From the NCBI GenBank assembly GCA_026395295.1, contig JAPLYZ010000005.1, positions 1 to 40,857 on the forward strand: a stretch of 40,857 bases of DNA, written 5' to 3'. This stretch comes from Candidatus Staskawiczbacteria bacterium (GTDB taxonomy: Bacteria > Patescibacteriota > Minisyncoccia > Minisyncoccales > Staskawiczbacteraceae). The notes under the pieces are model-generated. The model was not told where the DNA came from and made no database searches. It saw nothing but the letters and a program-made list of their open reading frames with translations. The position numbers were made by a program, and so were the translations under genes. Positions 1,862 to 29,407 of the stretch are shown here, one piece after another (position 1 is the stretch's first letter; every line of letters starts with the position of its first letter).

Positions 1862-3604
1862 TTATGCGACTTCGGCGTTGTAGCAACTCTCGCAGTAAAC
1901 AATCTCCGGCCTGTCGGGAGCATAACTGGTTTCAAACTCATTAGTGCATTTTCCGGTGTGGTGCGAATGCTTTTTATCGCACATGCACTGCCTGTGCCAA
2001 AGTTTTAACGGATTGCGCTGCTTAACGCGTTCAAAATGCCGGCAATTATGGCATAGCGAAGGAATTGGAATTCTCATTTTTTTATAAAACTGAAATTCTT
2101 CCGGGGTTATCTTAAAAGCAACTGTACAGTTGTCTCCGCAACTGCCCCTGTGATTGCATTCAATAATTTCTTTCGTAATTACTTCGTCTGCTTTATCAAT
2201 GGACTGCGGAATTTTATCTGAATGTAATGTAATTTCATATTGTCTTTGCTTGTCTTCTCCCCACGCGTAACCAAGAGAACCCGCCTGGTCTTTTGTTTTG
2301 GAGAAAAATTCTTGAGCAATGGTCTGATTGTACGGAAAAGGCATAAATTCCAGCGGGAATGTGTCGCCGTAAGAATAATTTATGCCTCTTTCGCCCTTAA
2401 ACGGCATAGATTTCATTTGTTCCTTTATCTTAGAAACAAACTTTTCATATTCCTCTTTTGTAAATTGCTTGTTGAAAATGCAATAATGCTTGTTGCGAAG
2501 ACCTACGCAACCGAAAAGGTTAGAAGATAAATGGCAATTGACGCAATACTCCGCCCCGGTCAATCCGTCCCAACATTCATTAGAAAAATACACCGAAGAA
2601 CATTGGTAACCAATACTTGAACACTCGTAAATAAGTTCGGATGATTTACCCCAATAAGTATAATCCATTACGTCCTTAGCCTCCATAATGCCGAAAAGGT
2701 TCTTTCCGTCTTCAACTTTCTTACAATTAAATCCGCTTGATACATTTTTGCATTCTTCCAACCAATTGCCCGATGACTTAACGCTATGGCGAGAAACAAG
2801 CGCCGGAACTATTTTTTGGCTGACTATTAATGAGAGCTTATTTCTAAGAACGCCAATTGTTTCGGTGTTTCCCAAATCAAAATCTTTTATTTTTTCTTTG
2901 TACTCTTCTTTAGAATACTGCTCGTTAAATAAACAATAGCTCTTGTTGCGTAAATTAACGCATCCAAGGCAACTGTCGCAATTTCGGCAATTGATCAAAA
3001 AAGCAGAGTTACTGCAACTGACACATTCTTGAGAATATTTTAGCCGATTAGAACTGTAAACATCTATGCACTCGTAACAAAGCTCGGAGGAGTGAAGGTT
3101 ATAGCAGTCCATGCTTTCTTTTGCTCCCCAAAATGAAGTGCCGTATGAACAATTTTCATTATCGGCCGCGGCAAAAATCAGATAGCAATTCTTATTATCG
3201 CTGGCGCGGTTTGTATAATCGCTGTTAACATTTACATGTTGCTGGATAATTCCCATGCGTGGCACAGCCCTAAAAAGTTCATTAAATTGGGAAAAGAAAG
3301 GTTTGCTGAAATCATAATCTCGCGCATAAACTGCAGCGTCCCAATTATCCGACCACCAGCACTCATAGCAATACACTTTGAAAAAACTATTCTGCGGGAA
3401 CATAACTATTTTATCCTTCTGGCATAAATCGCATTTGCGCTTGAAAAGCGTTCGCTCGTTTCTCCAGGCAAGGCGTTTTGTAAGCCTGCACTCCGGGCAA
3501 AAGGTGGGCGCTGGAACTTTCATCTTTTCATAAAAATCAAAATCCTCGGGCTCAATTGTGAACTCATGCTTACAGTTCTGACAAACTTTTGTCTCTGATT
3601 CCAT
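1862..3604 (-). CDS. Cysteine-rich zinc-ribbon/repeat protein, paralog A (580 aa)
   Basis: N-terminal CQNCKHEFTIEPEDFDFYEKMKVPAPTFCPECR; two Cys-rich modules each ending CxGCVxLRNKxYCxFNxQxxKEEY; C-terminus KCTNEFETSYAPDRPEIVYCESCYNAEVA. Confidence 0.8.
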   Translation of the reverse strand: MESETKVCQNCKHEFTIEPEDFDFYEKMKVPAPTFCPECRLTKRLAWRNERTLFKRKCDLCQKDKIVMFPQNSFFKVYCYECWWSDNWDAAVYARDYDFSKPFFSQFNELFRAVPRMGIIQQHVNVNSDYTNRASDNKNCYLIFAAADNENCSYGTSFWGAKESMDCYNLHSSELCYECIDVYSSNRLKYSQECVSCSNSAFLINCRNCDSCLGCVNLRNKSYCLFNEQYSKEEYKEKIKDFDLGNTETIGVLRNKLSLIVSQKIVPALVSRHSVKSSGNWLEECKNVSSGFNCKKVEDGKNLFGIMEAKDVMDYTYWGKSSELIYECSSIGYQCSSVYFSNECWDGLTGAEYCVNCHLSSNLFGCVGLRNKHYCIFNKQFTKEEYEKFVSKIKEQMKSMPFKGERGINYSYGDTFPLEFMPFPYNQTIAQEFFSKTKDQAGSLGYAWGEDKQRQYEITLHSDKIPQSIDKADEVITKEIIECNHRGSCGDNCTVAFKITPEEFQFYKKMRIPIPSLCHNCRHFERVKQRNPLKLWHRQCMCDKKHSHHTGKCTNEFETSYAPDRPEIVYCESCYNAEVA

Positions 3605-3609
3605 AATTT

Positions 3610-4755
3610 TTATTTTTTGAAAAAATCGTTAAGGCATTTTTCAAATTTTTGCAAGTGCTCGTTTTTGATGCGAAAACCCGATGCCTGGGCGTGTCCGCCA
3701 TAAGTCATTAAAAACCTGTCGCAAGATTTCATTGCGTCAACCGAATTAGTGCCTTTTGGATTTCTTACAGAACCGCAAGACTCTTTATCCATTTTCTTAA
3801 ATATAAAAGCCGGCTTCTCGTATTTGTTGCAAATTGTTGAAGCCACCGAGCCCGCCAAAGTTAATTTCCACGAGGGGTCGCCCTCAAAAATAACCGGCTC
3901 GTCTTTTTTTTGCGAAATCCTCCTTTCCACCTCTTGTATTATATTTTTAACCTGCGTCTGCTTGTATTTATTTTTTTCCAAAAGCGTTTGGACCATCTCC
4001 TCGCACTTTTTTCTGTCGGAAGATGTTAAAAGCAAGTATGACTCATTTTCAAAATTTATAGACTCAGCGGCATTCAAGGCAGAAATAATTTTCTGCATAG
4101 ATTCTCCAAAAACCTTTCCGTCTCCCAGAATATCCAAAAATGCCCTTAATGCCGGGCGAAAAGTGTGTTTTAGCGACCTAAGCCCTTGCTCAATTATCTC
4201 CTGATTTTGCTCAACCTGCGGAACCATATCGGCAATTGTTCCCAAAGCCGCCAACTCTAAAAAACTGTTTTTTAAATTTTTAGAAATATTTTTACCCAAC
4301 AAATCTTCACAAAGATTGAAGGTGACTCCCACGTTCGCCAAGCCTTTGAACGGGTAATCGTCATCTTCTTGTTTTGGATCAACAATGATAGATGCCTTCG
4401 GAACGCCGGCTAAGGGTTCGTGGTGGTCAATTACTATCACCTCAAAACCCATTTTATTCGCCGCATCAATTTCTTTAACATTTCCGATGCCAAGATCCAA
4501 AGTTATGAAAAGCGCCGGAGTTTTGTCTTTAAGCATATCCAGTGCCTTTGCATTTATTCCATACCCGTCTTTTTCTCTGTCTGGGAAAAAGGCGCAGTTT
4601 ACATGTCCGCCCAAGCTTTTAATTGCCTCCTCCAAAATAACAACCGATGATATGCCGTCTAAGTCAGAATCGCCATACAAAATAATCCGCTCTTTGTTTT
4701 GAACAGCTTTTTTAATCCTCTCTGCCGCCTTCTCTATGTTTTTAATTTTTCTCAT
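3610..4755 (-). CDS. DHH/DHHA1 family phosphoesterase (RecJ-like single-strand exonuclease)
   Basis: ILYGDSDLDGISSVVIL, VIVIDHHEP, C-terminal SCGSVRNPKGTNSVDAMKSC..MTYGGHAQASGFRI. Confidence 0.85.
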   Translation of the reverse strand: MRKIKNIEKAAERIKKAVQNKERIILYGDSDLDGISSVVILEEAIKSLGGHVNCAFFPDREKDGYGINAKALDMLKDKTPALFITLDLGIGNVKEIDAANKMGFEVIVIDHHEPLAGVPKASIIVDPKQEDDDYPFKGLANVGVTFNLCEDLLGKNISKNLKNSFLELAALGTIADMVPQVEQNQEIIEQGLRSLKHTFRPALRAFLDILGDGKVFGESMQKIISALNAAESINFENESYLLLTSSDRKKCEEMVQTLLEKNKYKQTQVKNIIQEVERRISQKKDEPVIFEGDPSWKLTLAGSVASTICNKYEKPAFIFKKMDKESCGSVRNPKGTNSVDAMKSCDRFLMTYGGHAQASGFRIKNEHLQKFEKCLNDFFKK

Positions 4756-4773
4756 GTAATAATTATTTAAGCG

Positions 4774-4906
4774 AGGAAATGAATTTTAAAGGCACCTTCG
4801 GAGCCCCGCCAGCTTGGTTTTCGCGAAGCGAAATGGCGGGGCGAGAATGAGGCGCGCCGAGCTGCTGGGCGAGGCGACGCCGGTGCCGATTAAAATTTAT
4901 TTCCGA
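4774..4906. repeat. Intergenic long inverted-repeat element with GC-rich nested hairpin
   Basis: Left end GGAAATGAATTTTAAAGGCACC pairs with right end GGTGCCGATTAAAATTTATTTCC; nested GCCCCGCCA...TGGCGGGGC. Confidence 0.65.
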
Positions 4907-4912
4907 GCGAAA

Positions 4913-5974
4913 TTATCCCAGCGCTTCAAGGCCAGGCAATTTGTCGCCTGCTAAATATGACAACATTGCTCCTCCGCCGGTTGAGACATGGCTGAACTTA
5001 TCAATCATACCTTGCTTGTTCACAAAATCAACCGTGTCCCCGCCGCCAACAATAGAAAACGCCTTGCTCTTAATAATTGCTTTCGCAATTGCCAGCGTTC
5101 CTTTTTCATATTTTTTATCCTCAAACTTTCCAAATGGCCCATTCCATAAAATTGTTTTTGCCTGCATTATTTTCTCTTGAAAAATTTTTATTGACTCATT
5201 GTTGATATCTAAAGCATCCAGTTTTCCCGTTGGAAATATTATTTTATCGGGATTCTCAAATTCTATTTTTTTATCTTGCGTCCCTTTTTTTATCAATCCG
5301 CTTATAATTACAGCTTCCGCCGATTTAGAAAAATTATTTATTAGTTTTAACTTTGTCTCTTCAACTTTAACCCCGCCTATTATAACTACCAGCGGTTTAC
5401 CAGGATTTTTCATCACCTTATCTAAAACTTCTATTTCTTTTGCCAAAGTAAAACCGGCCGCCGATGGCAAATATTTGCAAATGCCGGTCATTGAAGCGTG
5501 GTTGCGATGAGAATTGGCGAAAGCATTGTCTACATAAATATCTCCGAGTTTTGATAATTTTTCTGCAAATTCAGGATTATTATCAGTTTCTTCTTTATGA
5601 AACCTTAAGTTTTCAAGCAACAGAATTCCCCCCTCCCCCAAGCTAGCGACTAAACTCTCAACTTCTTTGCCTACGCAATCATCTGCTTTGATAATTTTCA
5701 ACCCTAAATGTTTTTCCAAACTTTTTTGTACTGAAATTAGCCTTAAAGATTCAACTACTTTGCCATCTGGACGGCCTGCATGCCCCATCAAAATAACTTT
5801 TGCTTTATTTTTCACCAAATATTCTATTGTCGGCAAGCTTTGCTTAATTCTATAGTCGTCTAAGATATTCCCCTTTTCGTCCATTGGCACATCAAAATCG
5901 CACCTTATCAAGATGCGTTTTCCGGCAACATTGAAATCTTTCAAAGTTTTCACCCCGTTAGAAGCTTTTGGCAA
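4913..5974 (-). CDS. pgk: Phosphoglycerate kinase
   Basis: KTLKDFNVAGKRILIRCDFDVPMD, MGHAGRPDGK, LLLENLRFHKEE, WNGPFGKFE, GGGDTVDFV, STGGGAMLSYLAG. Start may instead be GTG at 5953 (see findings). Confidence 0.93.
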   Translation of the reverse strand: MPKASNGVKTLKDFNVAGKRILIRCDFDVPMDEKGNILDDYRIKQSLPTIEYLVKNKAKVILMGHAGRPDGKVVESLRLISVQKSLEKHLGLKIIKADDCVGKEVESLVASLGEGGILLLENLRFHKEETDNNPEFAEKLSKLGDIYVDNAFANSHRNHASMTGICKYLPSAAGFTLAKEIEVLDKVMKNPGKPLVVIIGGVKVEETKLKLINNFSKSAEAVIISGLIKKGTQDKKIEFENPDKIIFPTGKLDALDINNESIKIFQEKIMQAKTILWNGPFGKFEDKKYEKGTLAIAKAIIKSKAFSIVGGGDTVDFVNKQGMIDKFSHVSTGGGAMLSYLAGDKLPGLEALG

Positions 5975-6265: not shown

Positions 6266-7924
6266 CTACGCTACTTCGCGCTGGTAGCACTCCAGGCAGG
6301 CTACTTTTTGAAAACCAAGCTCGAGACCATAATAATGTTCAATTTCTTTTTTGCAAAAGTAGCAAGTTCCCCTCTGTGGCATTATCATTAAACTAAAAGG
6401 CTTAAACCGTTCCAGGGTGCGCCAATCAAAATGTCTCCGCGGAAGCGGAATTTTGTGCTGTTTATAAAACGCCAGCTCATCTTTGGTAATATTATAACTT
6501 AGTTTTGTTTCCGGACATAAAACGCGTTGCTTCACAATTTCATCTTTAACTTGGTCAATGGTGTCCGGCAAATCGTCTCCGCTGATAATATTTTCGTAAT
6601 GAGGCTCAACAGCCTCTTCCCATTTCACGCCAAATTTCAAAGCTTCGTCCTTAGTCATTGGAAACATCATTTGCGCCAGCGAAAGATTGTATCCACAATA
6701 CGCAACCGATAATGGAAAAAACTTTCCCCATTCTCCCCTATTTTTCATATCTCCTTTAATTCTTCCAACCAAACTTTCGTACTCTTCTTTTGTATATTGC
6801 TTGTTTAATATACAGTATTTCTTTTTGCGCAACCCCACACAACCAAAACAATACTCGCATTCCTCACAGTTGTCTAAATAAGAAGAGTATCGACATGAAG
6901 TAGTGTAAAGATTACACGTATTTCCATAGCCAAGCTGGTCCAACGCGCCAAGGGAGCATTTTTCTGAATCAAAAAGACTTATTGAATCAATGGTCTCCTT
7001 TCCTCGTCCGCGAAAACAGTACCTGCAATTTTCCGAATCTTCAATAAAATAACATTGATAACAATTTTTATCATTATTAAGAAGATTTCCTTGAGAGTTC
7101 ACCGCCTGAAGATTATAATCTTGCCGATGCACAGCGTCTTGCTGAATATGTTGCCATAATTCTTTTTTAAAAGCCTCAACCGAAGAACGCGATGCAAGGT
7201 TGTATTCTGCAATTTTCTTAAAATAATCTTCCTTAGAATATGGCTGATTTAAAACACAATACTTTTGATTCCTTAAATTCCAAGACATAAAACAATTTTG
7301 ACAATTTCGGCAATCATACAAAAACAAACTGTCCATGCAGTCGCGAGAATTAAAAGAATATTTTAAGTTATAACTTTTAAAACAGTACAAACAATCGTAT
7401 GAACGCTCAAGATCCCAGCACATCGCAATATCAATCGAATTTTTACAATTTAACACCCGGTATCCATAACTAATAGACTCGTTGTGCAATCCTGACCGCG
7501 AAAGATATGCATCTTTTGATTCCCACATGTCATCGGTCCAATCAGAGTTAAAGTTTTTAATGCCGGTTTGGTGAGGATGAGGCACTTTTGATTGCAGTTC
7601 AACAAGTTGCTCAATAAATGAGCTCGAAGCATCGTAATCCTTTCCATAAGTAAGCGGATCCCAAGCATCGGACACAAATTCGGCGCGTTCATAAATAGGG
7701 AAAGGAGCTGACTCCGGGATGACCGTTATAATTGTTTTTCCGCTCAACGCCGACTTAGCAATTCTGAATTTTCCAAAGACCCAAAAAGCCAACAAGTATT
7801 TCCAGCGGCAATATACACACATGCTTGGCAGAGGTAAATCAAATTTTTCGTAGAATAAAGAATCTTCTTCCAGAATAGAAAAATCCTTATGACATTTTTC
7901 GCATTGTTTTGTTTCTTGTTGCAT
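6266..7924 (-). CDS. Cysteine-rich repeat protein, paralog B (552 aa)
   Basis: CEKCHKDFSILEEDSLFYEKFDLPLPSMCVYCR; CQNCFMSWNLRNQKYCVLNQPYSKEDY; YCFGCVGLRKKKYCILNKQYTKEEYE; ends ACLECYQREVA. Confidence 0.8.
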   Translation of the reverse strand: MQQETKQCEKCHKDFSILEEDSLFYEKFDLPLPSMCVYCRWKYLLAFWVFGKFRIAKSALSGKTIITVIPESAPFPIYERAEFVSDAWDPLTYGKDYDASSSFIEQLVELQSKVPHPHQTGIKNFNSDWTDDMWESKDAYLSRSGLHNESISYGYRVLNCKNSIDIAMCWDLERSYDCLYCFKSYNLKYSFNSRDCMDSLFLYDCRNCQNCFMSWNLRNQKYCVLNQPYSKEDYFKKIAEYNLASRSSVEAFKKELWQHIQQDAVHRQDYNLQAVNSQGNLLNNDKNCYQCYFIEDSENCRYCFRGRGKETIDSISLFDSEKCSLGALDQLGYGNTCNLYTTSCRYSSYLDNCEECEYCFGCVGLRKKKYCILNKQYTKEEYESLVGRIKGDMKNRGEWGKFFPLSVAYCGYNLSLAQMMFPMTKDEALKFGVKWEEAVEPHYENIISGDDLPDTIDQVKDEIVKQRVLCPETKLSYNITKDELAFYKQHKIPLPRRHFDWRTLERFKPFSLMIMPQRGTCYFCKKEIEHYYGLELGFQKVACLECYQREVA

Positions 7925-7934
7925 AATTTTTTCC

Positions 7935-8002
7935 TGTCATTCCCGCGAAAGCGGGAATCCAGAGTTTAATTTACTGGATTCCCAATCAAGTTGGGAATGA
8001 CA
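7935..8002. repeat. Gene-less palindromic element (family 2): two inverted arms around an 11-nt spacer
   Basis: TGTCATTCCCGCGAAAGCGGGAATCCAG (7935-7962) / AGTTTAATTTA / CTGGATTCCCAATCAAGTTGGGAATGACA (7974-8002). Confidence 0.85.
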
Positions 8003-8012
8003 CGGCGATATT

Positions 8013-9539
8013 TTAGATCAGCGGTTCTTCGGGTTTGTCTTCCTTCGCCGCGCCAGAGCCTTTGGCGGAGGCGGGTTTGCCTTGTGATTTTGGCGTGTCC
8101 TTTGGCTCGTCTTTAGATTCGGGACCCTTGCCTTTGCCTTCAATTATAGACTTCTCATGCGAGCTTCTCATTATTTTCGACTCTTCGGCTTGCATAAGTT
8201 TTTGCGCGGCCTCAGCCGGAATAGTATACTTTTCGCGGGACATATTTATAATTTCCTTTTTAAAAGACTTGTGAGTTGCCGGCATAACTTTAAGCGTTTC
8301 GGCAGAAAAAGGGTCGTAAGCTTCACCATCAATGGTTTCCTTAATATAAAAATTCTGGACTCCCAAGTTCACCATATCTTTGACGCCAAATATCGGCGCC
8401 ATTTCCGGCTCTAATTTAACCGCGTCTTCACCGCCAACGCGAAAGACAATAATGGTTCCCGTGTTTCCCAAAACCGCTTGCTGGACTTTGGGAATAAGCT
8501 GACCCATATATTGGTGCGCAACAGTAAGACAAATGCCATATTTGCGGGCTTCTGACAAAATATTCTCAAAAGTCTCGGTCATAAGGTTGTGGAACTCGTC
8601 AACATAAAGGTAATAATCTTTTCTTTCATCTTCCGGCAAAGATGCCCGCTCCATGCCCGCTTGCTTAATTTTTGTGATAAACATTGAACCAAAAAAGCTT
8701 GAGTTCTCCTCTCCCAATTTTCCTTTAGATAGGTTAATCAAAATAATCTTTCCTTCGTTCATCATTTTTGCCAAGTCAACTTTGTTTTCCTCCTGGCCAA
8801 AAATTCCTCGCAAAGCAGGGTCCGACAAAAACTGCGCCAATTTATTTACCAAAGGAATTATAGCTTCGGTGTCATATTTTTCCGACCAATCGGCAAACTC
8901 AATTGCCCAGAAGCGCTTAACCATGTCGTCTTGAATATATTCAACAACAAGCTGGCGGTAATTCCTGTCAGTAAGCATGGAAATCATTCCGCGCATGGTG
9001 CCGTGCGGATAATCCAAAAGAGCTAAACAAGTGAAACGGAAAACGTGCTCAAGCCTGGGGGTCCAGTTGGCGCCGAATTGTCTTTCCAAAACCTCAATCA
9101 AACCCTGAGTCAATTGATGCTTAAAGCTTGGGTCAATGTTCGCCAAAGGATTAAAAGAAATTGGAAATTTAGAGTCGGACGGGTCAATAAGCACAACATC
9201 GTCTATTCTGTTCTCCGGGATAAAATCTAAAATCGCATCAATAACATCTCCGTGTGGGTCAATAAAACAAAGCCCGTGGCCATATCCAATGTCTTGCCGG
9301 ACAAAAAGTTCCAAAAGTTTTGACTTTCCCACTCCGGATTTACCAACAATATACAAGTGCCTTCGCCTGTCCACCCTTTTAATTCCAAAAATAAACTTTT
9401 GCTCTTGCAACGCAGCTTCATAATTAGTTTTACCAATAAAAGAACAATCTTCGGGCTCTACCGAACCATAAACTGGCAACTCCGGAGGCGGAGGCGCCAA
9501 TTTAAATCTCCTAATTCTATTGTTTTTATTCTCTGCCAA
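8013..9539 (-). CDS. VirD4/TraG/DUF87-like P-loop ATPase (ATPase 1, 508 aa)
   Basis: RRRHLYIVGKSGVGKSKLLE (Walker A), LCFIDPHGDVIDAIL, DYYLYVDEFHNLMTETFENILSEARKYGICLTVAHQYMGQL. Confidence 0.85.
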   Translation of the reverse strand: MAENKNNRIRRFKLAPPPPELPVYGSVEPEDCSFIGKTNYEAALQEQKFIFGIKRVDRRRHLYIVGKSGVGKSKLLELFVRQDIGYGHGLCFIDPHGDVIDAILDFIPENRIDDVVLIDPSDSKFPISFNPLANIDPSFKHQLTQGLIEVLERQFGANWTPRLEHVFRFTCLALLDYPHGTMRGMISMLTDRNYRQLVVEYIQDDMVKRFWAIEFADWSEKYDTEAIIPLVNKLAQFLSDPALRGIFGQEENKVDLAKMMNEGKIILINLSKGKLGEENSSFFGSMFITKIKQAGMERASLPEDERKDYYLYVDEFHNLMTETFENILSEARKYGICLTVAHQYMGQLIPKVQQAVLGNTGTIIVFRVGGEDAVKLEPEMAPIFGVKDMVNLGVQNFYIKETIDGEAYDPFSAETLKVMPATHKSFKKEIINMSREKYTIPAEAAQKLMQAEESKIMRSSHEKSIIEGKGKGPESKDEPKDTPKSQGKPASAKGSGAAKEDKPEEPLI

Positions 9540-9695
9540 GGTCGTGTGAGCGAAAAGTCTTGCTTCGGCCCCGCTTAGCGGAAACGTTGAAAACCTTACG
9601 CTTCTTAGTTTTATTTAATTACTCTATCATAGCTTTTTTATGTAATTCCAGCAAGACAAATCCACCAGCCAACGGTGCCGGCGTGCCATTAAATT

Positions 9696-11567
9696 TTACG
9701 CTACTTCTTGCTGATAGCACTGCTCGCAGTAAATTATTTCGGGGCGGTCAGGAGAGTAAGATGTTTTGAAATCGTTAGTACACTTGCCACTTCCGTGGGA
9801 ATGTTTAGCGGTGTTTTGATAAACCGTTGCTTGCCCTGAGGAATTCGAAGGGTCTGACTTTGCGCCCGCGCACTGACATTCTCTCGTCCATGTTTTGAGG
9901 GTTGTTCTTTCCTTGAGACGTTCAGCAGTGCGACAATTTGGGCAAAGATGTGGCAATGAAAGACCTGTTTGCCGATAAAAACTTAGTTCATCCGCAACTA
10001 TACGAAAAGCGCCGGTGCATTCATCGTTGCACTTACCGCCATGTTCACATTCTATAACTTCTTTTAGTATGCTATCAGAAACATTTTTTATGTCGTCAGA
10101 AATATCTGCTGTTTTAAGCGTGACTGCATAATTCCTTTCTCGTCTTTCCTGCCAACGAAATCCCTGCTTAGTTGCCTCTTCTCTTGTTAATTTAAAATGC
10201 TCCTGCGCAATCGTCTCGTTATAGGCGAACGGACTGAACTCCGACGGGAAAAACTCACCATACTTGTAAACTACTCCCTGCCCATCGCGATATGGATTCT
10301 CATTCATTTGCTCTACAATTTCACCTCGTAGTTTTTCAAAATCCTCTTTTGTATATTGTTTGTTCAAAATGCAGTACTGTTTATTCCGCAAACCGACGCA
10401 TCCAAAACAGTCTCCGGCAGGCCCACAGAACAAGCAATATTCGAGATTGCGAACTTCCGGCCAGCAACTTCCGCAAAACCGTATGTTGTTTGTCCCCTTG
10501 CCACATATGCAACATTCATATGTCAGATTATTCATATTGCCCCAAATTGAGTGATCATAACAATCCTTGTTTTCGGGAACATCTAAATACTGGCAATATT
10601 TAAGGTTTTCTCCCTCGCGAACCAGATAACAATTGTGGCAATTCTTGGAATTAAAAATATAATTTCCGTTGACATCCTCATTTCGCTGCCCTTCAATAAA
10701 TTTTGTGGGGAAACCAAGCCAAAATTTCCTGACCTCGATTAATATCCTTTTCAATTCTTTAAACGAACCGAGGTTATATTTTTCCAACTCGGAAACATAA
10801 GCTTCTTTGGTGTATGGCTTATTAAAAATGTGATATTGTTTATTGCGTAAATTAACACAGCCGAAGCAAGAAGTGCAATTACGCAAATTTTTTGAAAAAT
10901 AAACGTCAAGGCAGTTCTCGCATTGAGATGAAAAGAAAATCCTCGAGGAACGCGTAACCCAAAAACTTTGATAGCAAAAATCGCACTTGTTTACATGGGA
11001 GACATCAAGGCATCGTTTAGAAAAATTGACACCATTACCATATAGACAATCTTCGGCGTAAGTAGTGTTAAAGACAAGAAAAGAGTTTTTCGGTCCGGTG
11101 GCATTATTGCAATAATCGCTGTTGACGTCATCAATCATGCTTGCTGTCCTATGAGGAACTTCAGACATTAATTTTTTAAATTGCTCCAAGAATGGGCGTA
11201 ATGGGTCAAAGTCACGTCCATACTCCATCGGATCCCATACATCCGAATACCAAACCTTGCTTTCGTAAACTTTCACTGGAGCCTCGGACGGATATTGCGA
11301 AAAAATTTCCTTGCCTGACCAATCGCTTTTACGTTTGTAGAGGAACCTCTCGTTACGCCATATAAGGCGTCTTTGCGCTCGGCATTCCGGACACCAGGTT
11401 GGCGCAGGAACTTTCATTTTCTCGTAGAAATCAAAATCCTCGGACTCAATTACAAAGTCCTTTTTACAATTTTGACACCCGACCAAACGCGCCCCTGGCG
11501 CGATTGTGACGGGTCCGTCTAAATGCCTCTTAGGGCTTTTGTCGGATTGTTTGGTTTCCCTTTCCAT
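9696..11567 (-). CDS. Cysteine-rich repeat protein, paralog C (623 aa)
   Basis: CQNCKKDFVIESEDFDFYEKMKVPAPTWCPECR; CFGCVNLRNKQYHIFNKPYTKEAY; CFGCVGLRNKQYCILNKQYTKEDFE; ends EIIYCEQCYQQEVA. Carries two repeat-like insertions absent from its paralogs. Confidence 0.8.
   Translation of the reverse strand: MERETKQSDKSPKRHLDGPVTIAPGARLVGCQNCKKDFVIESEDFDFYEKMKVPAPTWCPECRAQRRLIWRNERFLYKRKSDWSGKEIFSQYPSEAPVKVYESKVWYSDVWDPMEYGRDFDPLRPFLEQFKKLMSEVPHRTASMIDDVNSDYCNNATGPKNSFLVFNTTYAEDCLYGNGVNFSKRCLDVSHVNKCDFCYQSFWVTRSSRIFFSSQCENCLDVYFSKNLRNCTSCFGCVNLRNKQYHIFNKPYTKEAYVSELEKYNLGSFKELKRILIEVRKFWLGFPTKFIEGQRNEDVNGNYIFNSKNCHNCYLVREGENLKYCQYLDVPENKDCYDHSIWGNMNNLTYECCICGKGTNNIRFCGSCWPEVRNLEYCLFCGPAGDCFGCVGLRNKQYCILNKQYTKEDFEKLRGEIVEQMNENPYRDGQGVVYKYGEFFPSEFSPFAYNETIAQEHFKLTREEATKQGFRWQERRERNYAVTLKTADISDDIKNVSDSILKEVIECEHGGKCNDECTGAFRIVADELSFYRQTGLSLPHLCPNCRTAERLKERTTLKTWTRECQCAGAKSDPSNSSGQATVYQNTAKHSHGSGKCTNDFKTSYSPDRPEIIYCEQCYQQEVA
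9831..9858. repeat. Short in-frame repeat in the paralog C C-terminal region
   Basis: TTGCCCTGAGGAATTCGAAGGGTCTGAC, encodes SDPSNSSGQA; absent from paralogs A and D at the aligned position. Confidence 0.55.
11481..11556. repeat. In-frame repeat insertion at the N-terminus of paralog C (family 3)
   Basis: GATTGTGACGGGTCCGTCTAAATGCCTCTTAGGGCTTTTGTCGGATT; encodes SDKSPKRHLDGPVTIAPG, absent from paralogs A, B and D. Confidence 0.7.
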
Positions 11568-13567
11568 TATTTATCTTGATTTGGGAAAGATGTTTTGTCT
11601 TCATACTTTTCCTCGTCAACTCTTTCTTCCAATTCTTCCGAAGCCGTAGCTTCGCCCTGAACCGTGTCGAAGGGCTTATCTTTCTTTTCTAGCGATTCCT
11701 CCAGGGCTTTTCTTAAGTCAGCTAAATCAACCGGCTTTTTTTCTTTTTTACTCTTATTAAACGGCACGTTCTCTCCCTTTTGCATTATCTCATTCAAAGA
11801 CAGTGAAGGAGTTCTCGGTTTTTGAACAGGAGAAGATTGGGTGCGACTGGCCGTTGAATCTTGCCTAATAGCAGGACGACTTTGCGTACGACCTGATGAC
11901 GGGGCAAACTCTATGCCTAAATCTGCCAGAGCTGCATCCCTTTCTTGTTTGCTTCCAGACTGTTTATTTTCAGATTGCCATGATTTTTGTTCAGATACAC
12001 CAGGCATTGCTCTTGCCGGCGTTGATGGTGCAGATTGTATTTCTCCGGCCTTCAATTTTTTCAAACAGCTTTTACAATAAACAGCTCTCCCGGGCTCGGG
12101 CGGGAAAATAACTTTAGTTGGTTTGCCACAATTAGAACACACTGCGTCGTACAATTTTGCCTCGCCCGTTGAGTTACGTGAATCAGAAGAAAGCTTCGAC
12201 CCGTTAGGTTTATATTGAGCCCTAGAAGAATTTTGAGGATTAGAAAAATCTGAAGATCCCTGCCTGGTAGGCACATCTTGGCTGGATGCCCAGCGGTTAA
12301 TTTCATCCTCAACATCCTTTACCGGCAAAGCATACTTTGCTCTGGAAGTTTTAATCATTTTTTCCCTCTTTTTTTCGTCTCTGGGAATGGGAGCCAAAGT
12401 AATGGTTGTAGCAGAAAACGGCCTGGAAGTTATACCGTCTATCATAAGCTTTAAATAAACATTGCGGTTATCCAGGCGGATCAAATCGTTTTGCTCAAAC
12501 TCGGGAGTAAACTCCTGCTCTAAAAATTCCGCGTCGCCGGCTCCCACGCGGAAAGAAACCATTGTACCCACGTTGCCAAAAACAGCATCCCTGACAGCGG
12601 TGCTTGTGTCGGTAACCAATTGGCCTATATATTGATGAGCAATAATCAAATCCAAGCGGTATTTTCTTGCCTCTGACAAAATGTTCACGAAAGAATCTGT
12701 GGCAAAATTCTGGAATTCGTCAACGTACATATAAAAATCTTTTCTTTCCTCTTCGGGAATTCTCACACGCTCCATTGCCACCAGCTGTATTTTAGTAATA
12801 AGCATTGCTCCCAAAATGGCCGAGTTGTCCTCGCCAATTCTGCCCTTAGAAACGTTGACCAACAAAATTTTTCCCGTATTCATTATTTCATCAATATCAA
12901 TGGTGTTTTTGGCTTGACCTACAATATTCCTGACAAAAGAAACATTCAAAAACTGCCCTACTTTATTTTGAACCGGAGCAATGGCTTCATTTCGGTAGCG
13001 CGATTCCCACTCTTCATATTCGTTGACCCAAAATGATTTCACCACCGGGTCTTTAAGGTTGTTGATAATTTTTTGCCGATAGTCTCTGTCAACCAGCATT
13101 CTTGGTATGCCCAAAAGCGTGGTGCCGGGAGTGTCCAATAAAGCTAAAATACAATTGGCTAAAATGTATTCCATGCGGGCCGACCACACGTTTGCCCAAA
13201 TTTTGGTAAAAATGCCTATTAGTCCCGATGCGATCAAGTGCTTATATTTGGGGTCGGGCACATCCATAATGTTAAAACTGACCGGGTGATCCATATCAGA
13301 CGGATTGAAATAAACCACATCATTAATGCGGCTAACAGGCACGCTGTCTAAAATTTCCTCAACAAACTCTCCGTGCGGGTCAATAACAGCAAGCCCCTGC
13401 CCATTGTTTATGTCCTGCATGGCCATATTTTTCAAAAATTGGGTTTTACCAGTTCCGGTTTTTCCAATCACATACATGTGCTGGCGCCGGTCATTTCTTT
13501 TAATCCCAAACTTCTGTTCGCTGTTGCGAAAGTTTGTCTTGGCTATATAAGTTAAATCTTTTGCCAT
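11567..13567 (-). CDS. VirD4/TraG/DUF87-like P-loop ATPase (ATPase 2, 666 aa) with C-terminal zinc ribbon
   Basis: RRQHMYVIGKTGTGKTQFLKNMAMQD, LAVIDPHGEFVEEIL, DFYMYVDEFQNFATDSFVNILSEARKYRLDLIIAHQYIGQL; C-terminal CSNCGKPTKVIFPPEPGRAVYCKSCLKK. Confidence 0.87.
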   Translation of the reverse strand: MAKDLTYIAKTNFRNSEQKFGIKRNDRRQHMYVIGKTGTGKTQFLKNMAMQDINNGQGLAVIDPHGEFVEEILDSVPVSRINDVVYFNPSDMDHPVSFNIMDVPDPKYKHLIASGLIGIFTKIWANVWSARMEYILANCILALLDTPGTTLLGIPRMLVDRDYRQKIINNLKDPVVKSFWVNEYEEWESRYRNEAIAPVQNKVGQFLNVSFVRNIVGQAKNTIDIDEIMNTGKILLVNVSKGRIGEDNSAILGAMLITKIQLVAMERVRIPEEERKDFYMYVDEFQNFATDSFVNILSEARKYRLDLIIAHQYIGQLVTDTSTAVRDAVFGNVGTMVSFRVGAGDAEFLEQEFTPEFEQNDLIRLDNRNVYLKLMIDGITSRPFSATTITLAPIPRDEKKREKMIKTSRAKYALPVKDVEDEINRWASSQDVPTRQGSSDFSNPQNSSRAQYKPNGSKLSSDSRNSTGEAKLYDAVCSNCGKPTKVIFPPEPGRAVYCKSCLKKLKAGEIQSAPSTPARAMPGVSEQKSWQSENKQSGSKQERDAALADLGIEFAPSSGRTQSRPAIRQDSTASRTQSSPVQKPRTPSLSLNEIMQKGENVPFNKSKKEKKPVDLADLRKALEESLEKKDKPFDTVQGEATASEELEERVDEEKYEDKTSFPNQDK
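11653..11674. repeat. Short in-frame repeat in the ATPase 2 C-terminal tail
   Basis: CGCCCTGAACCGTGTCGAAGGG, encodes PFDTVQGE. Confidence 0.5.
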
Positions 13568-13580
13568 AAATTTTTTATTA

Positions 13581-15284
13581 TTACACTACTTCCTGCTGAT
13601 AACATTGTTCGCAGTAAACTATTTCCGGTCTGTCCGGCGCATATGAGGTTTCAAATTCATTCGTACACTGTCCGGTGTGGTGCGTGTGATCTTTATTGCA
13701 CATACACTGTCGGTGCCAAAGCTTGCGTGGCGGACGAAGCGCAATTTTATTTAGATATCTGCATTGCGGACATCGACGTGGAATCGGCGCAATAAACCTA
13801 CGATATAAATCAAATTCTGCTTTTACAATATTATAATTTCTATTACACTCTATACATCGAAACGCTTCTTTTATAATATTCTCAGAAACATCTATAATAC
13901 TGTCAGGAATATTTTCCGGCGATATTGTTTCTTTGCCAAATGTCCCCGATGCTAATTCTTCCCATTTCATTCCCAACGCAAGAGCTTCTTTTTTTGAACG
14001 TGGCATATAGATCGTCCCCTGCGTTTCGTTGTAGCCGAATGGCGACAATGAAAAAGGAAAAAATTCTCCATACTCCTTTGTCTTTTTCATATGTTCGATT
14101 ATCTTATCTTTCAAGACTCCGTAATCCTCTTTGCTATACTGCTTGTTAAAAATCACATAGTTACCTTTTATTACGCCAACGCATCCGAATAAATTCTCAC
14201 TGTTGTGACACGAGTCACAATACATAATATGCGAGTCGTCATAACTCAAATGCGAAAACATCACGTTATATGCGTGTATGAGGGCGTGCGATTCGTATAC
14301 CAGCTCGCTTTGAAATCCAAAATGATAAACATCCATGCAATCTTTTACGTCAGGGCATACAACAGAATATTTTGTATCTTCAACTTTGTCGGCATCAAAA
14401 ACAAATTTACAGTTTTTTGAATCTGTAATCATGTTGCCAGACACATTCACCGATCTCTCGGTGACAGCAAACCGATGTACTGTTTTTTTCACAACAAGGT
14501 CTTTGTATTCAAGGTATAGTTTTTCCCGAACCTTATGTGACGCCAAATCGTAATCTGCAATTTTCTTATCATATTCTTCTTTCGTATACTGCTGATTCTT
14601 AAAAACATATTTCTTGTTTCTTAGATTGGATGACAAAAAACAATGCTGACATCCCCGACAATCAAAACAATACAAACAGTCTGTACAATCGCGTAATAAA
14701 TTTCCAAACTGGCACTGGTAAATCCGCGCGGAGTCAGAGCATTCGTAGCATAGTTCCGCGGCATCCGTCATCCTGTATAATTCCATAGAGTCGCGCGATT
14801 TGCCCCACACATTCGTTGCGTACAAAATGTTCTCGGAATCAAACACCGCAAAACACAAATAACAGTCTTTGTTATTATTAGAATGGTTTGTGTATTCTGA
14901 ATTAATACTGTTCTTAGTCAAAAGCGCGATGCGAGGAATTTTTGATTGAAGTTCCTGAAATTGCTCAAAAAAAGGACGCTTAAAATCGAAGTCTGCTCCA
15001 AAATCTAGCGCGCTCCACTTGTCTGACCACCAACATGGAGGACAATAAACTTTATATGGCTTGTTTGGAGAATAAATTGTCACCGTGCTTTTGCCACACA
15101 AATCGCAACTGCGTCGATAAAGCACTCGTTCATTTCTCCATGCATGGCGCCTCAACGCGCGACACTCAGGACAAAAGGTCGGCGCGGGAACCTTCATTTT
15201 TTCGTAGAAATCAAAATCCTCCGGCTCAATAGCGAACTCGTGCTTACAATTTTGACATGTTTTAACCTCGGTGCCTCTTGACAT
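13581..15284 (-). CDS. Cysteine-rich repeat protein, paralog D (567 aa)
   Basis: CQNCKHEFAIEPEDFDFYEKMKVPAPTFCPECRALRRHAWRNERVLYRRSCDLCGK; LFGCVGVIKGNYVIFNKQYSKEDY; ends TNEFETSYAPDRPEIVYCEQCYQQEVV. Confidence 0.8.
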   Translation of the reverse strand: MSRGTEVKTCQNCKHEFAIEPEDFDFYEKMKVPAPTFCPECRALRRHAWRNERVLYRRSCDLCGKSTVTIYSPNKPYKVYCPPCWWSDKWSALDFGADFDFKRPFFEQFQELQSKIPRIALLTKNSINSEYTNHSNNNKDCYLCFAVFDSENILYATNVWGKSRDSMELYRMTDAAELCYECSDSARIYQCQFGNLLRDCTDCLYCFDCRGCQHCFLSSNLRNKKYVFKNQQYTKEEYDKKIADYDLASHKVREKLYLEYKDLVVKKTVHRFAVTERSVNVSGNMITDSKNCKFVFDADKVEDTKYSVVCPDVKDCMDVYHFGFQSELVYESHALIHAYNVMFSHLSYDDSHIMYCDSCHNSENLFGCVGVIKGNYVIFNKQYSKEDYGVLKDKIIEHMKKTKEYGEFFPFSLSPFGYNETQGTIYMPRSKKEALALGMKWEELASGTFGKETISPENIPDSIIDVSENIIKEAFRCIECNRNYNIVKAEFDLYRRFIAPIPRRCPQCRYLNKIALRPPRKLWHRQCMCNKDHTHHTGQCTNEFETSYAPDRPEIVYCEQCYQQEVV

Positions 15285-15319
15285 GGTTTTATAATTTGCT
15301 ATAATTAGCTTACTTTTGG

Positions 15320-15357
15320 GATTATCCCATCGATCCCCCGCTTCGCGGGGGTGATAA
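15320..15357. repeat. Palindromic hairpin between the MazF-like gene and paralog D
   Basis: GATTATC...CCCCCGC TTC GCGGGGG...GATAATC; no poly-T run on either strand. Confidence 0.65.
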
Positions 15358-15771
15358 TCACTTTGAAAACTCGAGTAATTTCTCGAGTTTTTGTTTTACT
15401 CGTAAAAAATCTTTTTCGTCCAACTCGCCTATTTTTCTTTGAAATCGTTTTTTATTAAAAACTCTAATTTGATAAAGTAGCACCCAAGCTTTTTGCCCTC
15501 CGAAAGTAATATCTATAAACCAAGAGCCATCTTTCTTCTCCCTTGAGGTCATCGGCAAAGCAACGCATAGGTCTGCTGAAAATTTTTTATAAATTAAAAT
15601 TGGCCTTCTAAAATCCTCTCCTTTGCCATACGATTCGCTCCCAATATTTTGTCCAACAGAGCACCACCAAATCTGCCCTTCCTTAAAATACACACTTTTC
15701 ATTCTTTCAGAAAAATGAATCTCCTGTTTTTTCGCATTCCAATTATTAAATTTTTCTATAAAATCTTTCAT
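15358..15771 (-). CDS. MazF/PemK-like toxin-family protein
   Basis: FKEGQIWWCSVGQNIGSESYGKGEDFRRPILIYKKFS...CVALPMTSREKKDGSWFI...LYQIRVFNKKRFQRKIGELDEKDF. Confidence 0.75.
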   Translation of the reverse strand: MKDFIEKFNNWNAKKQEIHFSERMKSVYFKEGQIWWCSVGQNIGSESYGKGEDFRRPILIYKKFSADLCVALPMTSREKKDGSWFIDITFGGQKAWVLLYQIRVFNKKRFQRKIGELDEKDFLRVKQKLEKLLEFSK

Positions 15772-15803
15772 TATCTTAAAGATGCGGTAAAAATTAGTAT
15801 TAT

Positions 15804-17453
15804 CTATTCGTCGATTGGCAAGTTGGCTGGCGGACCGGCTTTCTTCGACTCAACGTTAACCATTGTTGGCGCCACCATTCCGGAAACTCTCAATGGGAAG
15901 TGATACATTGTCGCCAATTCTTCCGAGCTCATAATTGGGTTTAAATCATCACTCATTCTGTCCGGAAACAGAGGAGGGAATCTTAAAACAGCCATTCTGA
16001 ACATTTTTCTCGCTCTCAAGAAAACTCTGCGCTTTCGCATAAAAAAGTGAACTCTTGGTCTTGTTCTTCCCTGAAAACCAAGCGAGTTTAAATTATTGGC
16101 GATAAAATGTCCTGCATAAGACCTGAATATGACTCTGTGAGGAGCTTTCCAGCTTTCTCTCTTGGCGATATAAACCCCTCTCATAGTTGTTCTAAACAGC
16201 GGTTTTTTTATTTTATCTTCAACTGCGGTGATAATTTCTCTTTCTCCTGCAGTTAGCGATATTCTCATTTCGCCAGTTTCTTCATCTTCTTCAAGGCGTT
16301 CCCAAGAATAAGATTCGCCGTCTTTTTCCGGACCCATAATAACCTGCCTTGCCACATATTTTAAATCATCCATAAATGAAGACTCCTTTTTTTCCGGTCT
16401 TCTTGATATTTTGTTAATTACCTTTTTCGCGTTTTTATAAATGTTCGGCTCATCATACTCCACTATTGGAACAGTTATAAATTGCACCCAGTAATGTTCA
16501 CCCGGACCCAATCTTGACAAAGCTTCCAAAAGTCCTATCATTGGGTCAATTCTTTTTTCCTCGGCTGAAATTCTTTCTCCCTGAGGCTCAAAAAAACTCT
16601 CGTAAGTTTTTATTGGATAAACGTCGTCTTGCCTATAATCCCAATCTTCACCATAAATATCCCACTCTTCGTTTGGAATTGTTGGGGGGACTAATTTTGT
16701 ATAATCGGGAACTTCGCGTATTTCAAGGTCTGGGTAATGAGCATAAAGAGCTGTTTCAATGCTCATTTTGTGCTGTTGCAAAAATCTTAAATAGAAGTGC
16801 ACTTTACCCTCTACGCTGGCTAATTCAAAAGAGCACCAATAAGGCCCGTTGGCTAATTCTCCGTCGCACCATCTTTCGCGGAAGTTTGCCACATCCATAA
16901 GAGGCCAAATAGAAGAAAAAACGTCTTCCATCGCCTTGAAAGGAATCAAAACTTCTTTGGGCGGAGTCAGTTCCAGAACAATCCATTTTTGTTTGGCATA
17001 ATCATAATCCCAGTTAAGCCACCAAATGTAAATTGTTTTCAACTGCGACATAAGCATTAAGGGCAAGAAAATCCACCACCAAACTCTTAAAAAAGGAACC
17101 CATAAAATAATTAAAAGCAAAATCAGCCACCAAAATGGGTCCCAAATAATTTTTTTTACCCAGTCCCACCAAAACGGATTGGGAATAAGTATAATTGCCA
17201 AAGGCACAAGCGCCCACCAGAACAAATAATAAGGCAGTAAAATGGTTAAAAGCAAAAGCGTCCATCGGAATGAGTTTGACTGGCGTCCAGATTTTTCTTG
17301 CTTCTCAAAAGACATGGCCGCAATTGTCAAAACAACCGCGATTGCGACCACTCGCCCAAGAATTACCCACCAAGACAAACTGGACCAAGAAGCAAACCCC
17401 GTGGAAAAAAGCGGAAAAACTGCCCATTGAAACTTATTTATATTTTTTTCCAT
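15804..17453 (-). CDS. Trp-rich multi-pass membrane protein with soluble domain; predicted partner of the VirD4/TraG-like ATPases
   Basis: N-terminal hydrophobic Trp-rich helices; C-terminus MSSEELATMYHFPLRVSGMVAPTMVNVESKKAGPPANLP resembles the linker preceding the ATPase core in T4SS-like proteins. Confidence 0.6.
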   Translation of the reverse strand: MEKNINKFQWAVFPLFSTGFASWSSLSWWVILGRVVAIAVVLTIAAMSFEKQEKSGRQSNSFRWTLLLLTILLPYYLFWWALVPLAIILIPNPFWWDWVKKIIWDPFWWLILLLIILWVPFLRVWWWIFLPLMLMSQLKTIYIWWLNWDYDYAKQKWIVLELTPPKEVLIPFKAMEDVFSSIWPLMDVANFRERWCDGELANGPYWCSFELASVEGKVHFYLRFLQQHKMSIETALYAHYPDLEIREVPDYTKLVPPTIPNEEWDIYGEDWDYRQDDVYPIKTYESFFEPQGERISAEEKRIDPMIGLLEALSRLGPGEHYWVQFITVPIVEYDEPNIYKNAKKVINKISRRPEKKESSFMDDLKYVARQVIMGPEKDGESYSWERLEEDEETGEMRISLTAGEREIITAVEDKIKKPLFRTTMRGVYIAKRESWKAPHRVIFRSYAGHFIANNLNSLGFQGRTRPRVHFFMRKRRVFLRARKMFRMAVLRFPPLFPDRMSDDLNPIMSSEELATMYHFPLRVSGMVAPTMVNVESKKAGPPANLPIDE

Positions 17454-17455
17454 TT

Positions 17456-17680
17456 CTATATTCCCGATGCCCTGACTAAATCGGGCAGGTACTGAATAAT
17501 AATAGACACTATTGAAATAATAAAAAATCCCATTACAAAATATTCAAAAGCAAAAACCGCCGGCACCACGACATAAGAAATTTTCACCAGGTGCCAATAA
17601 TAAATAAACGAAAACAGGACAATGTAACCTATTGCCGTCATTGCGAATAAAACAATTAATCCTGTGGTAAAAACATCCAT
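17456..17680 (-). CDS. Small membrane protein (74 aa)
   Basis: ORF with hydrophobic segments 2 nt upstream of the 549-aa membrane protein. Confidence 0.55.
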   Translation of the reverse strand: MDVFTTGLIVLFAMTAIGYIVLFSFIYYWHLVKISYVVVPAVFAFEYFVMGFFIISIVSIIIQYLPDLVRASGI

Positions 17681-28741: not shown

Positions 28742-29407
28742 CTATATAATCTTGCCGGAAAGTTTTTTTGCCTCATTTATAAAAAAGTCCTGCCAAATAT
28801 CATCTTTAATATCCACCAGCATTTTAGGGAAATCTTTTAGTTCTTTGGCTTTCATATATTGAGCGCCTAACTGAATCGGGTCAATGTAATTACCAAATTT
28901 TATTTGAGCTTTTTTAACTAAATCATCAAGCGACAGGCTTTTATCCTTTTTTAAAATAAAATATAAATCAATGAAATCGCGAGACCTAGGACGTTGGTAG
29001 ATGGTAAAAACTTTATTCACTGCTATATCCAATAAGCTATCTATATATAAATCGCCGATCTTGGCTTTTTTTTCAATTCTAATGAAAGGAAAATAGGTAA
29101 ATTCTGTTTTAATTTTATCACCATCTGTTAAATCAAGAAAAAATAAATTTCGGTTAAAACTTTGCTGAAATTCCACCTTTTTTATTTTGGTGGCTTTAGC
29201 AATTTTGCTGAAAAAAACAGAAATGCCTTGAGGTTCAAACTCGTTTTCAGAAAAAAAATCTAAATCTTCCGAAAGGCGATGATGCAGATAAAACTCAGCC
29301 AGAGCTGTTCCGCCGGTTAAATAAAAATTATCACAAATAAGCCTATCTTGGCTTATAATCGTTAAAAAAATTTTTTGATTCTTGGATAAAATAGATTTTT
29401 CCGTCAT
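28742..29407 (-). CDS. AbiEii/AbiGii-like nucleotidyltransferase
   Basis: FYLTGGTALAEFYLHHRLSEDLDFFSE...IAVNKVFTIYQRPRSRDFIDLYFILK. Confidence 0.8.
   Translation of the reverse strand: MTEKSILSKNQKIFLTIISQDRLICDNFYLTGGTALAEFYLHHRLSEDLDFFSENEFEPQGISVFFSKIAKATKIKKVEFQQSFNRNLFFLDLTDGDKIKTEFTYFPFIRIEKKAKIGDLYIDSLLDIAVNKVFTIYQRPRSRDFIDLYFILKKDKSLSLDDLVKKAQIKFGNYIDPIQLGAQYMKAKELKDFPKMLVDIKDDIWQDFFINEAKKLSGKII

Follow-up and report, generated by a model that had tools for sequence, protein, structure and literature searches.

The window analysed here is a complete contig (C8) of 40,857 bases from the 902,891-base genome of Candidatus Staskawiczbacteria bacterium, a member of the Candidate Phyla Radiation (CPR). 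It carries a minus-strand locus in which genes for cysteine-rich (Cys-rich) proteins lie among genes for two VirD4/TraG-like ATPases and a Trp-rich membrane protein (Table 1). All open reading frames (ORFs) described there in an earlier note on this DNA were recovered with the same order, coordinates and strand, including that of Cys-rich A 5 nt after the recJ-like gene. The 13-nt gap between Cys-rich D and ATPase 2 and the TAATG junction between ATPase 2 and Cys-rich C were likewise as described. Matches above the Pfam cut-offs supported the proposed assignment of the ATPases to the TraG/VirD4/DUF87 class and of one small gene to the MazF-like toxins (PF02452). The two genes at the right-hand border are taken, from sequence and general knowledge, to be recJ-like and phosphoglycerate kinase (PGK) genes.

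Table 1. Features of the locus and related genes elsewhere. Positions refer to the window unless preceded by a locus (L) number; C and G numbers in the text denote contigs and genomes.
Feature	Position	Strand	Evidence
TM74, small membrane protein opening the locus	17456-17680	minus	ORF, 74 amino acids
Trp-rich membrane protein	15804-17453	minus	ORF, 549 amino acids
PemK/MazF-like toxin gene, accessory insertion	15358-15771	minus	PF02452 E 5.6e-15
Cys-rich D, zinc finger-solenoid-solenoid-zinc finger	13581-15284	minus	paralog of A
ATPase 2, VirD4/TraG-like	11567-13567	minus	Pfam TrwB_AAD_bind 9.5e-15, zf_Tbcl_2 1.2e-11
Cys-rich C	9696-11567	minus	paralog of A
ATPase 1, VirD4/TraG-like, C-terminal EPLI tail	8013-9539	minus	Pfam, co-occurrence, adjacency
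Cys-rich B, conserved member, usually near ATPase 1	6266-7924	minus	paralog of A
recJ-like and PGK genes, fixed right-hand border of insertion site	3610-5974	minus	
recJ-like gene	3610-4755	minus	5 nt before Cys-rich A
Cys-rich A, conserved member at PGK/recJ end	1862-3604	minus	ORF
Perfect sigma-70 consensus	15278-15305	plus	TTGACA-16-TATAAT with TG
AbiEii gene, outside the locus	28742-29407		PF08843
Copy J and its 85% identical counterpart in the G002 array	L026:8263-9972, L109:11716-13416		
CutA1 genes near ATPase 1	L105:17413-17724, L108:5199-5507, L109:15226-15531, L112:10752-11075, L113:10167-10472, L116:13066-13371		PF03091 in the four scanned
TrmB-type regulator genes by arrays, other classes	L121:2636-3382, L121:8613-9371, L122:14744-15502, L123:13120-13992, L126:8399-9190, L127:5995-6774		PF01978
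Cys-rich genes beside third, fused VirD4-like ATPase type	L075:12769-15141, L093:10818-13190, L100:11295-12233		gaps 12 to ~200 nt
Toxin-antitoxin-like genes in or near cassette interval (besides PemK)	L112:10036-10696, L113:10978-11412, L113:14930-15223		
ATPase 1 (tail EPMI) directly beside ATPase 2, G081	L114:9179-12562		no Cys-rich gene detected

Cys-rich A to D are true paralogs, with B, C and D 35-45% identical to A. Proteins of this family are ~550-620 amino acids long and contain 26-43 cysteines each. Profile comparison showed their N- and C-terminal zinc-finger modules to be mutually homologous (99.6%, E 6e-24), as are the two middle domains (99.9%, E 4e-36), so that the modules follow a mirrored zinc finger-solenoid-solenoid-zinc finger (Z-S-S-Z) order. 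Cysteine positions in the middle domains showed positive autocorrelation at every lag divisible by three, through 39 (z 8 to 31), and negative autocorrelation at all other lags. Within this lattice, Cys, Ser, Leu and Val predominate at phase 0 and Asn and Asp are abundant at phase 2, with the greatest variability at phase 1. An AlphaFold2 model (mean predicted local distance difference test score, pLDDT, 85; predicted template modelling score, pTM, 0.86) places strands at 12-residue intervals in the second solenoid and is less certain for the first (pLDDT 59-73 over most of it); the middle domains are predicted to form beta-solenoids with a 12-residue coil. Because AlphaFold2 over-predicts beta-solenoids for repeats (PMC11795689), the period found in the natural sequences is firmer evidence than the model.

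No confident PDB fold match to the Cys-rich model was found with Foldseek (no match reached E 0.001, and the highest probability was 0.25); weak matches to left-handed helices in that search were not used, and a LIM-type match in a PDB sequence profile search was at chance level. The zf_Tbcl/zf_Tbcl_2 matches of Cys-rich C and D were weak and under cut-off (21.1 of 24; 16.2 of 27). The beetle antifreeze protein TmAFP is a cysteine beta-solenoid with a 12-residue coil. The Cys-rich proteins resemble it in having inward residues, Cys among them, at every third position and, in the model, the same coil spacing. They differ from it in lacking a sequence or confident PDB fold match, in placing two solenoids between zinc fingers, and in being bacterial and apparently without a signal peptide, none being recognisable by eye. 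For protein chemists the predicted fold is thus an unusual one, with Cys, small or hydrophobic residues at every third position of two solenoids capped by zinc fingers.

Cys-rich A to D have no confident family in Pfam, NCBIfam, PADLOC or PHROGs, and no published description was found in the open-licence literature, consistent with an undescribed CPR family; the earlier note had proposed a candidate undescribed system. The genome contains 10 full-length Cys-rich genes, four on C8, two each on C10 and C17 and one each on C9 and C13. Genomes below 1 Mb rarely afford large families; here ~17 kb, or ~2% of the DNA, is given to ten copies that no database names. The six copies outside the window sit among ordinary genes, presumably including, to judge from sequence and general knowledge, murJ-like and lepA-like ones. 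The family was detected in 16 of 38 genomes searched (this one included). Copies are frequently tandem, with 12 matches in G006 and 13 in G008, all or nearly all at a single locus per genome; arrays in relatives reach 10 or more genes, and one close relative has ~13 at one locus. Related genes are present in Staskawicz-, Nomura-, Lipton-, Sungii-, Giovannoni-, Jorgensen-, Harrison- and Magasanikbacteria records. The distribution is patchy, with the family in 30 of 211 genomes of the class and, in a phylum sample of 193 genomes, in 10 further genomes outside it; copy numbers in these two samples are lower bounds, six candidates having been scored per genome. Phage carriage was not found: IMG/VR gave a single partial match, located at a contig end, and PHROG matches of the Cys-rich proteins were weak.

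Enrichment of Cys-rich genes beside TraG-like ATPases, the test named in the earlier note, was strong, extended over many families and was repeated in other classes. Scores against an ATPase-1 profile separate at ~530-570 bits in the class sample, and the 31 genomes at or above 567 bits were counted as positive, a cut chosen after the scores had been seen. Both partners are present in 25 of the 211 genomes, the Cys-rich family only in 5, ATPase 1 only in 6 and neither in 175 (Fisher p=5e-22). Because the genomes are related, the test was repeated by family: both partners occur in 12 families and single partners in 2 and 1 (p ~1e-10 to 1e-12, assuming a total of 70 to 98 families). The two share a contig in 22 of the 25 double-positive genomes, lying within 10 kb of each other in 21 and within 2 kb in 18. 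Among the five genomes with the Cys-rich family only, G066 and G135 reach just 80-84% completeness, and one contig of G211 carries an ATPase-1-like fragment of 97 residues. Outside the class, where the search covered the ten Cys-positive genomes, all ten encode an ATPase-1-type protein of ~690-770 amino acids, in eight cases on the same contig near Cys-rich genes. Five of these loci were opened; their neighbours are unlike those of the window, with a TrmB-type regulator gene beside or within the array. The coupling of the Cys-rich family and ATPase 1 in genomes is a solid result, and it is very probable that the two are coupled in function.

ATPase 1 is also much better conserved than two of its neighbors in the same loci, at 71-92% identity to the window copy against 53-73% for ATPase 2 and 25-73% for the membrane protein. 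It ends in EP[LM]I in all of 17 loci, with G134 as the sole exception among the further relatives compared, and the ATPase-1-type proteins of other classes end in EPLI or MPLI. A CutA1 gene lies near ATPase 1 in 7 of 17 ATPase-1 loci compared with 0 of 61 other loci. Four TrmB-type regulator genes in addition to those in Table 1 were seen in L034, L066 and L091. Cys-rich genes were also observed directly beside a third, fused type of VirD4-like ATPase.

Like the VirD4/TraG/TraD coupling proteins (PF10412, PF12696, PF02534), ATPases 1 and 2 pass Pfam cut-offs, namely those for TrwB_AAD_bind, TraG-D_C, DUF87 and T4SS-DNA_transf. Scores for ATPases 1 and 2 were 39.7 and 54.8 bits with PF10412 (cut-off 20.5) and 29.7 and 25.8 bits with PF12696 (cut-off 22). 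Neither exceeded an NCBIfam VirD4/TraD equivalog cut-off (best 50-54 bits versus 366). ATPase 1 further differs from VirD4 coupling proteins in its EP[LM]I tail, in its link with Cys-rich genes and in having no N-terminal membrane domain of its own. As judged from sequence and homology, both ATPases start straight at the motor domain. The soluble part of the 549-residue membrane protein shares homology with the N-domain of the ATPase-1-type proteins of other classes (hhalign 99.7%, E 3e-27) and with that of the third ATPase of this genome, a fused protein of 831 amino acids (99.5%, E 8e-23). By these alignments the membrane protein is a split-off partner domain, and a physical complex is therefore plausible. 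Its own structure model, built from five sequences, was of low quality (mean pLDDT 50.6), and no interpretation was drawn from it. Both ATPases match phrog_5156 (824 amino acids, unknown function; E 5e-57), and viral genomes are thereby known to encode a relative of the fused ATPase.

The Cys-rich proteins had been tied to both ATPases; the two differ in role, and ATPase 1 is the one linked to the family. Homologs of ATPase 2 and of the 549-residue protein are found in 36 and 37 of 38 relatives, respectively; they are an older, nearly universal pair of neighboring genes that occurs with or without Cys-rich genes. ATPase 2 ends in a treble-clef zinc finger (residues 471-504; zf_Tbcl_2 44.5 bits, cut-off 27). 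The idea that a shared zinc-finger tail specifically connects ATPase 2 with the Cys-rich proteins was dropped, as the ATPase 2 homologs of Cys-negative G016, G023 and G032 match there too.

The gene order in Cys-negative relatives is secD, secF, a HARE/sigma-r4-like gene, TM74, the 549-residue protein, ATPase 2, PGK and recJ, with PGK and recJ directly after ATPase 2 in L117 and L118. In most of the Cys-positive relatives compared, ATPase 2 is separated from PGK/recJ by a cassette that contains Cys-rich genes and ATPase 1; PGK and recJ come after this cassette in L106, L107, L109, L112 and L113. TM74 precedes the 549-residue protein in L105, L108, L109, L112, L117 and L118, as it does here. 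In the window, Cys-rich C, ATPase 1 and Cys-rich B occupy the cassette site, the PemK gene and Cys-rich D separate ATPase 2 from the membrane protein gene, and Cys-rich A is found beyond recJ. The cassette site usually holds an array, and the alternation of Cys-rich and ATPase genes that had first drawn comment is therefore one local arrangement; it is present in the window, but the layout elsewhere is a tandem array with one dedicated ATPase, ATPase 1.

Cys-rich B has an ortholog in all four relatives examined (74-77% identity) and A in three of those four (64-65%), and no ortholog above 48% was found there for D, F or I. Paralogs within the genome are 48-51% identical at the ends, 36-37% in the solenoids and 27% in the linker, the pattern that recognition of the ends by a shared handler would predict. 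Copy J, a dispersed member on C10, has a counterpart of 85% identity within the G002 array, and members therefore move between array and dispersed sites.

These observations point to the Cys-rich family and ATPase 1 as an undescribed two-part system of some CPR bacteria. We favor, at a probability of roughly 0.4, the reading that a diversified Cys-rich cargo is handled by a dedicated VirD4-like motor, ATPase 1. The first part would be the tandem, diversified family of Z-S-S-Z build; the second would be ATPase 1, with the kind of N-domain seen in its relatives fused to it in other classes and contributed in trans here by the 549-residue membrane protein. ATPase 1 would recognize the conserved zinc-finger ends common to all paralogs and would move or load the Cys-rich protein, most likely outward through the cell envelope, where the differing solenoids could act as cargo, for example on a host or partner cell. 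Export as the outcome is a tentative proposal; we infer that ATPase 1 and the Cys-rich proteins touch, and the direction and target of transport are guesses. Counted for this reading are the conservation of ATPase 1 above its neighbors, its recurrent linkage in other classes, the EP[LM]I tail, the T4SS (type IV secretion system) coupling-protein domains in Pfam and the VirB4-like cluster elsewhere in the genome. VirD4-dependent protein export is known, for example, from the Xanthomonas X-T4SS, which has many clustered substrates with a conserved terminal signal. Compared by layout rather than sequence, the present system is similar in combining diversified proteins that have conserved ends with a coupling-type ATPase. 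It differs in that both ends are conserved zinc fingers and no toxin domain was found, and secretion is a putative function here. An unlikely extension is an unrecognised CPR delivery system, in which the VirD4-like motor with its conserved tail would deliver a repertoire of zinc-finger-capped solenoids that determines which host or partner cell is usable. In a Saccharimonadia strain T4SS genes are reported to be essential for epibiotic growth (PMC12102498).

Several points weigh against a motor exporting Cys-rich cargo. The t4cp gene of Ca. S. epibionticum is not essential, unlike other T4SS genes (PMC12102498). ATPase 1, as read from its sequence, has no obvious membrane segment, even when fused to the N-domain in other classes, and the locus is not beside virB4. 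Six of the 10 Cys-rich copies of the genome are far from any ATPase, no VirD4-like ATPase having been detected on the contigs that bear them. G065 and G235 have the family without ATPase 1 and are apparently true negatives. Conversely, G081 has an ATPase 1 with no Cys-rich gene detected, which is possibly a remnant or works with a different partner. Finally, several ortholog pairs have solenoids that change no faster than the ends (for copy J, 91-92% versus 80-82%), and an arms race within the genes is therefore not indicated. Fast, antigen-like change within single genes is accordingly unsupported; a stable core with gain and loss of specialised members would fit these comparisons better.

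An intracellular adaptor role, the main rival, stands close behind export, although we consider it unlikely. ATPase 1 would then be a HerA/FtsK-type ring motor acting on DNA or proteins, with the Cys-rich proteins as zinc-finger adaptors or specificity subunits, for example in defence or DNA processing. The treble-clef zinc fingers at both ends, the apparent absence of a signal peptide, the motor's lack of an obvious membrane segment and the toxin-antitoxin-like genes mixed into the interval are all in keeping with this. The ATPases also share weak DUF87 and PADLOC HerA similarity with the HerA/DUF87 ring ATPases of defence and repair. However, no strong HerA match was found in PADLOC (HerA E 1e-7 or weaker; mad8 best at 4.7e-15), the Cys-rich proteins had no match in that library, and neither NurA nor another nuclease partner is present in the cassette. 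Pfam favors T4SS coupling-protein domains, and the cassette in this lineage adjoins the membrane protein that carries the shared N-domain.

Metal handling is improbable. The cysteines would bind zinc or a thiophilic metal, the arrays serving storage or tolerance and the ATPase being incidental or a loading partner. The cysteine content and regular lattice would suit such a role, as would the proximity to ATPase 1 of CutA1, which is concerned with divalent-ion tolerance; yet this genome has no CutA1, Cys alternates with Ser, Leu or Val at many lattice sites, which is odd for a metal store, and the differences between paralogs and the VirD4-like motor would be left unexplained.

DNA uptake or transfer, with the VirD4-like ATPases moving DNA bound by zinc-finger proteins, is less probable still. 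Pfam names coupling-protein DNA-transfer domains and zinc fingers can bind DNA, but a Pfam scan found no relaxase or VirB4 in the locus. The earlier note had likewise seen no relaxase or complete T4SS set in this DNA; a VirB4-like ATPase (P-loop_TraG) and further T4SS-like genes lie on contig C19 of the genome. Most CPR T4SS clusters are reported to lack a relaxase (PMC12102498), and competence in Saccharibacteria is attributed to type IV pili and ComEC (review PMC12857230).

Least probable is positional hitch-hiking, by which Cys-rich genes accumulate in an insertion hot spot after ATPase 2: the cassette does occupy precisely the interval from ATPase 2 to PGK/recJ, where other accessory genes also occur, and dispersed copies exist, J with its ortholog in the G002 array, but linkage to ATPase 1 is seen again in other classes, at unrelated sites that lack the ATPase 2/PGK landmarks, and co-occurrence by genome is independent of position.

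Patescibacteria have 5,713 VirD4 homologs in 2,918 genomes, only 148 of them near virB4, and other functions have been suggested for them (PMC12102498). ATPases 1 and 2 likewise lie away from virB4. A cargo module of Cys-rich proteins and ATPase 1 would be one such function, and the link to one ATPase offers a concrete way into the role of thousands of stray CPR VirD4-like ATPases, a question left open in that study.

The remaining observations concern the surroundings of the cassette. The PemK/MazF gene of the window is absent at the corresponding position in L105, L108, L109 and L112. The other toxin-antitoxin-like genes of the interval, in L112 and L113, are taken from sequence and general knowledge to be a HEPN/nucleotidyltransferase-like pair, a PIN-like gene and a RelE-like gene. 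An AbiEii gene is also present in the window, outside the locus. The sigma-70 consensus, which runs opposite to all genes of the locus, spans the start of Cys-rich D and the gap before the PemK gene, to which it is antisense.

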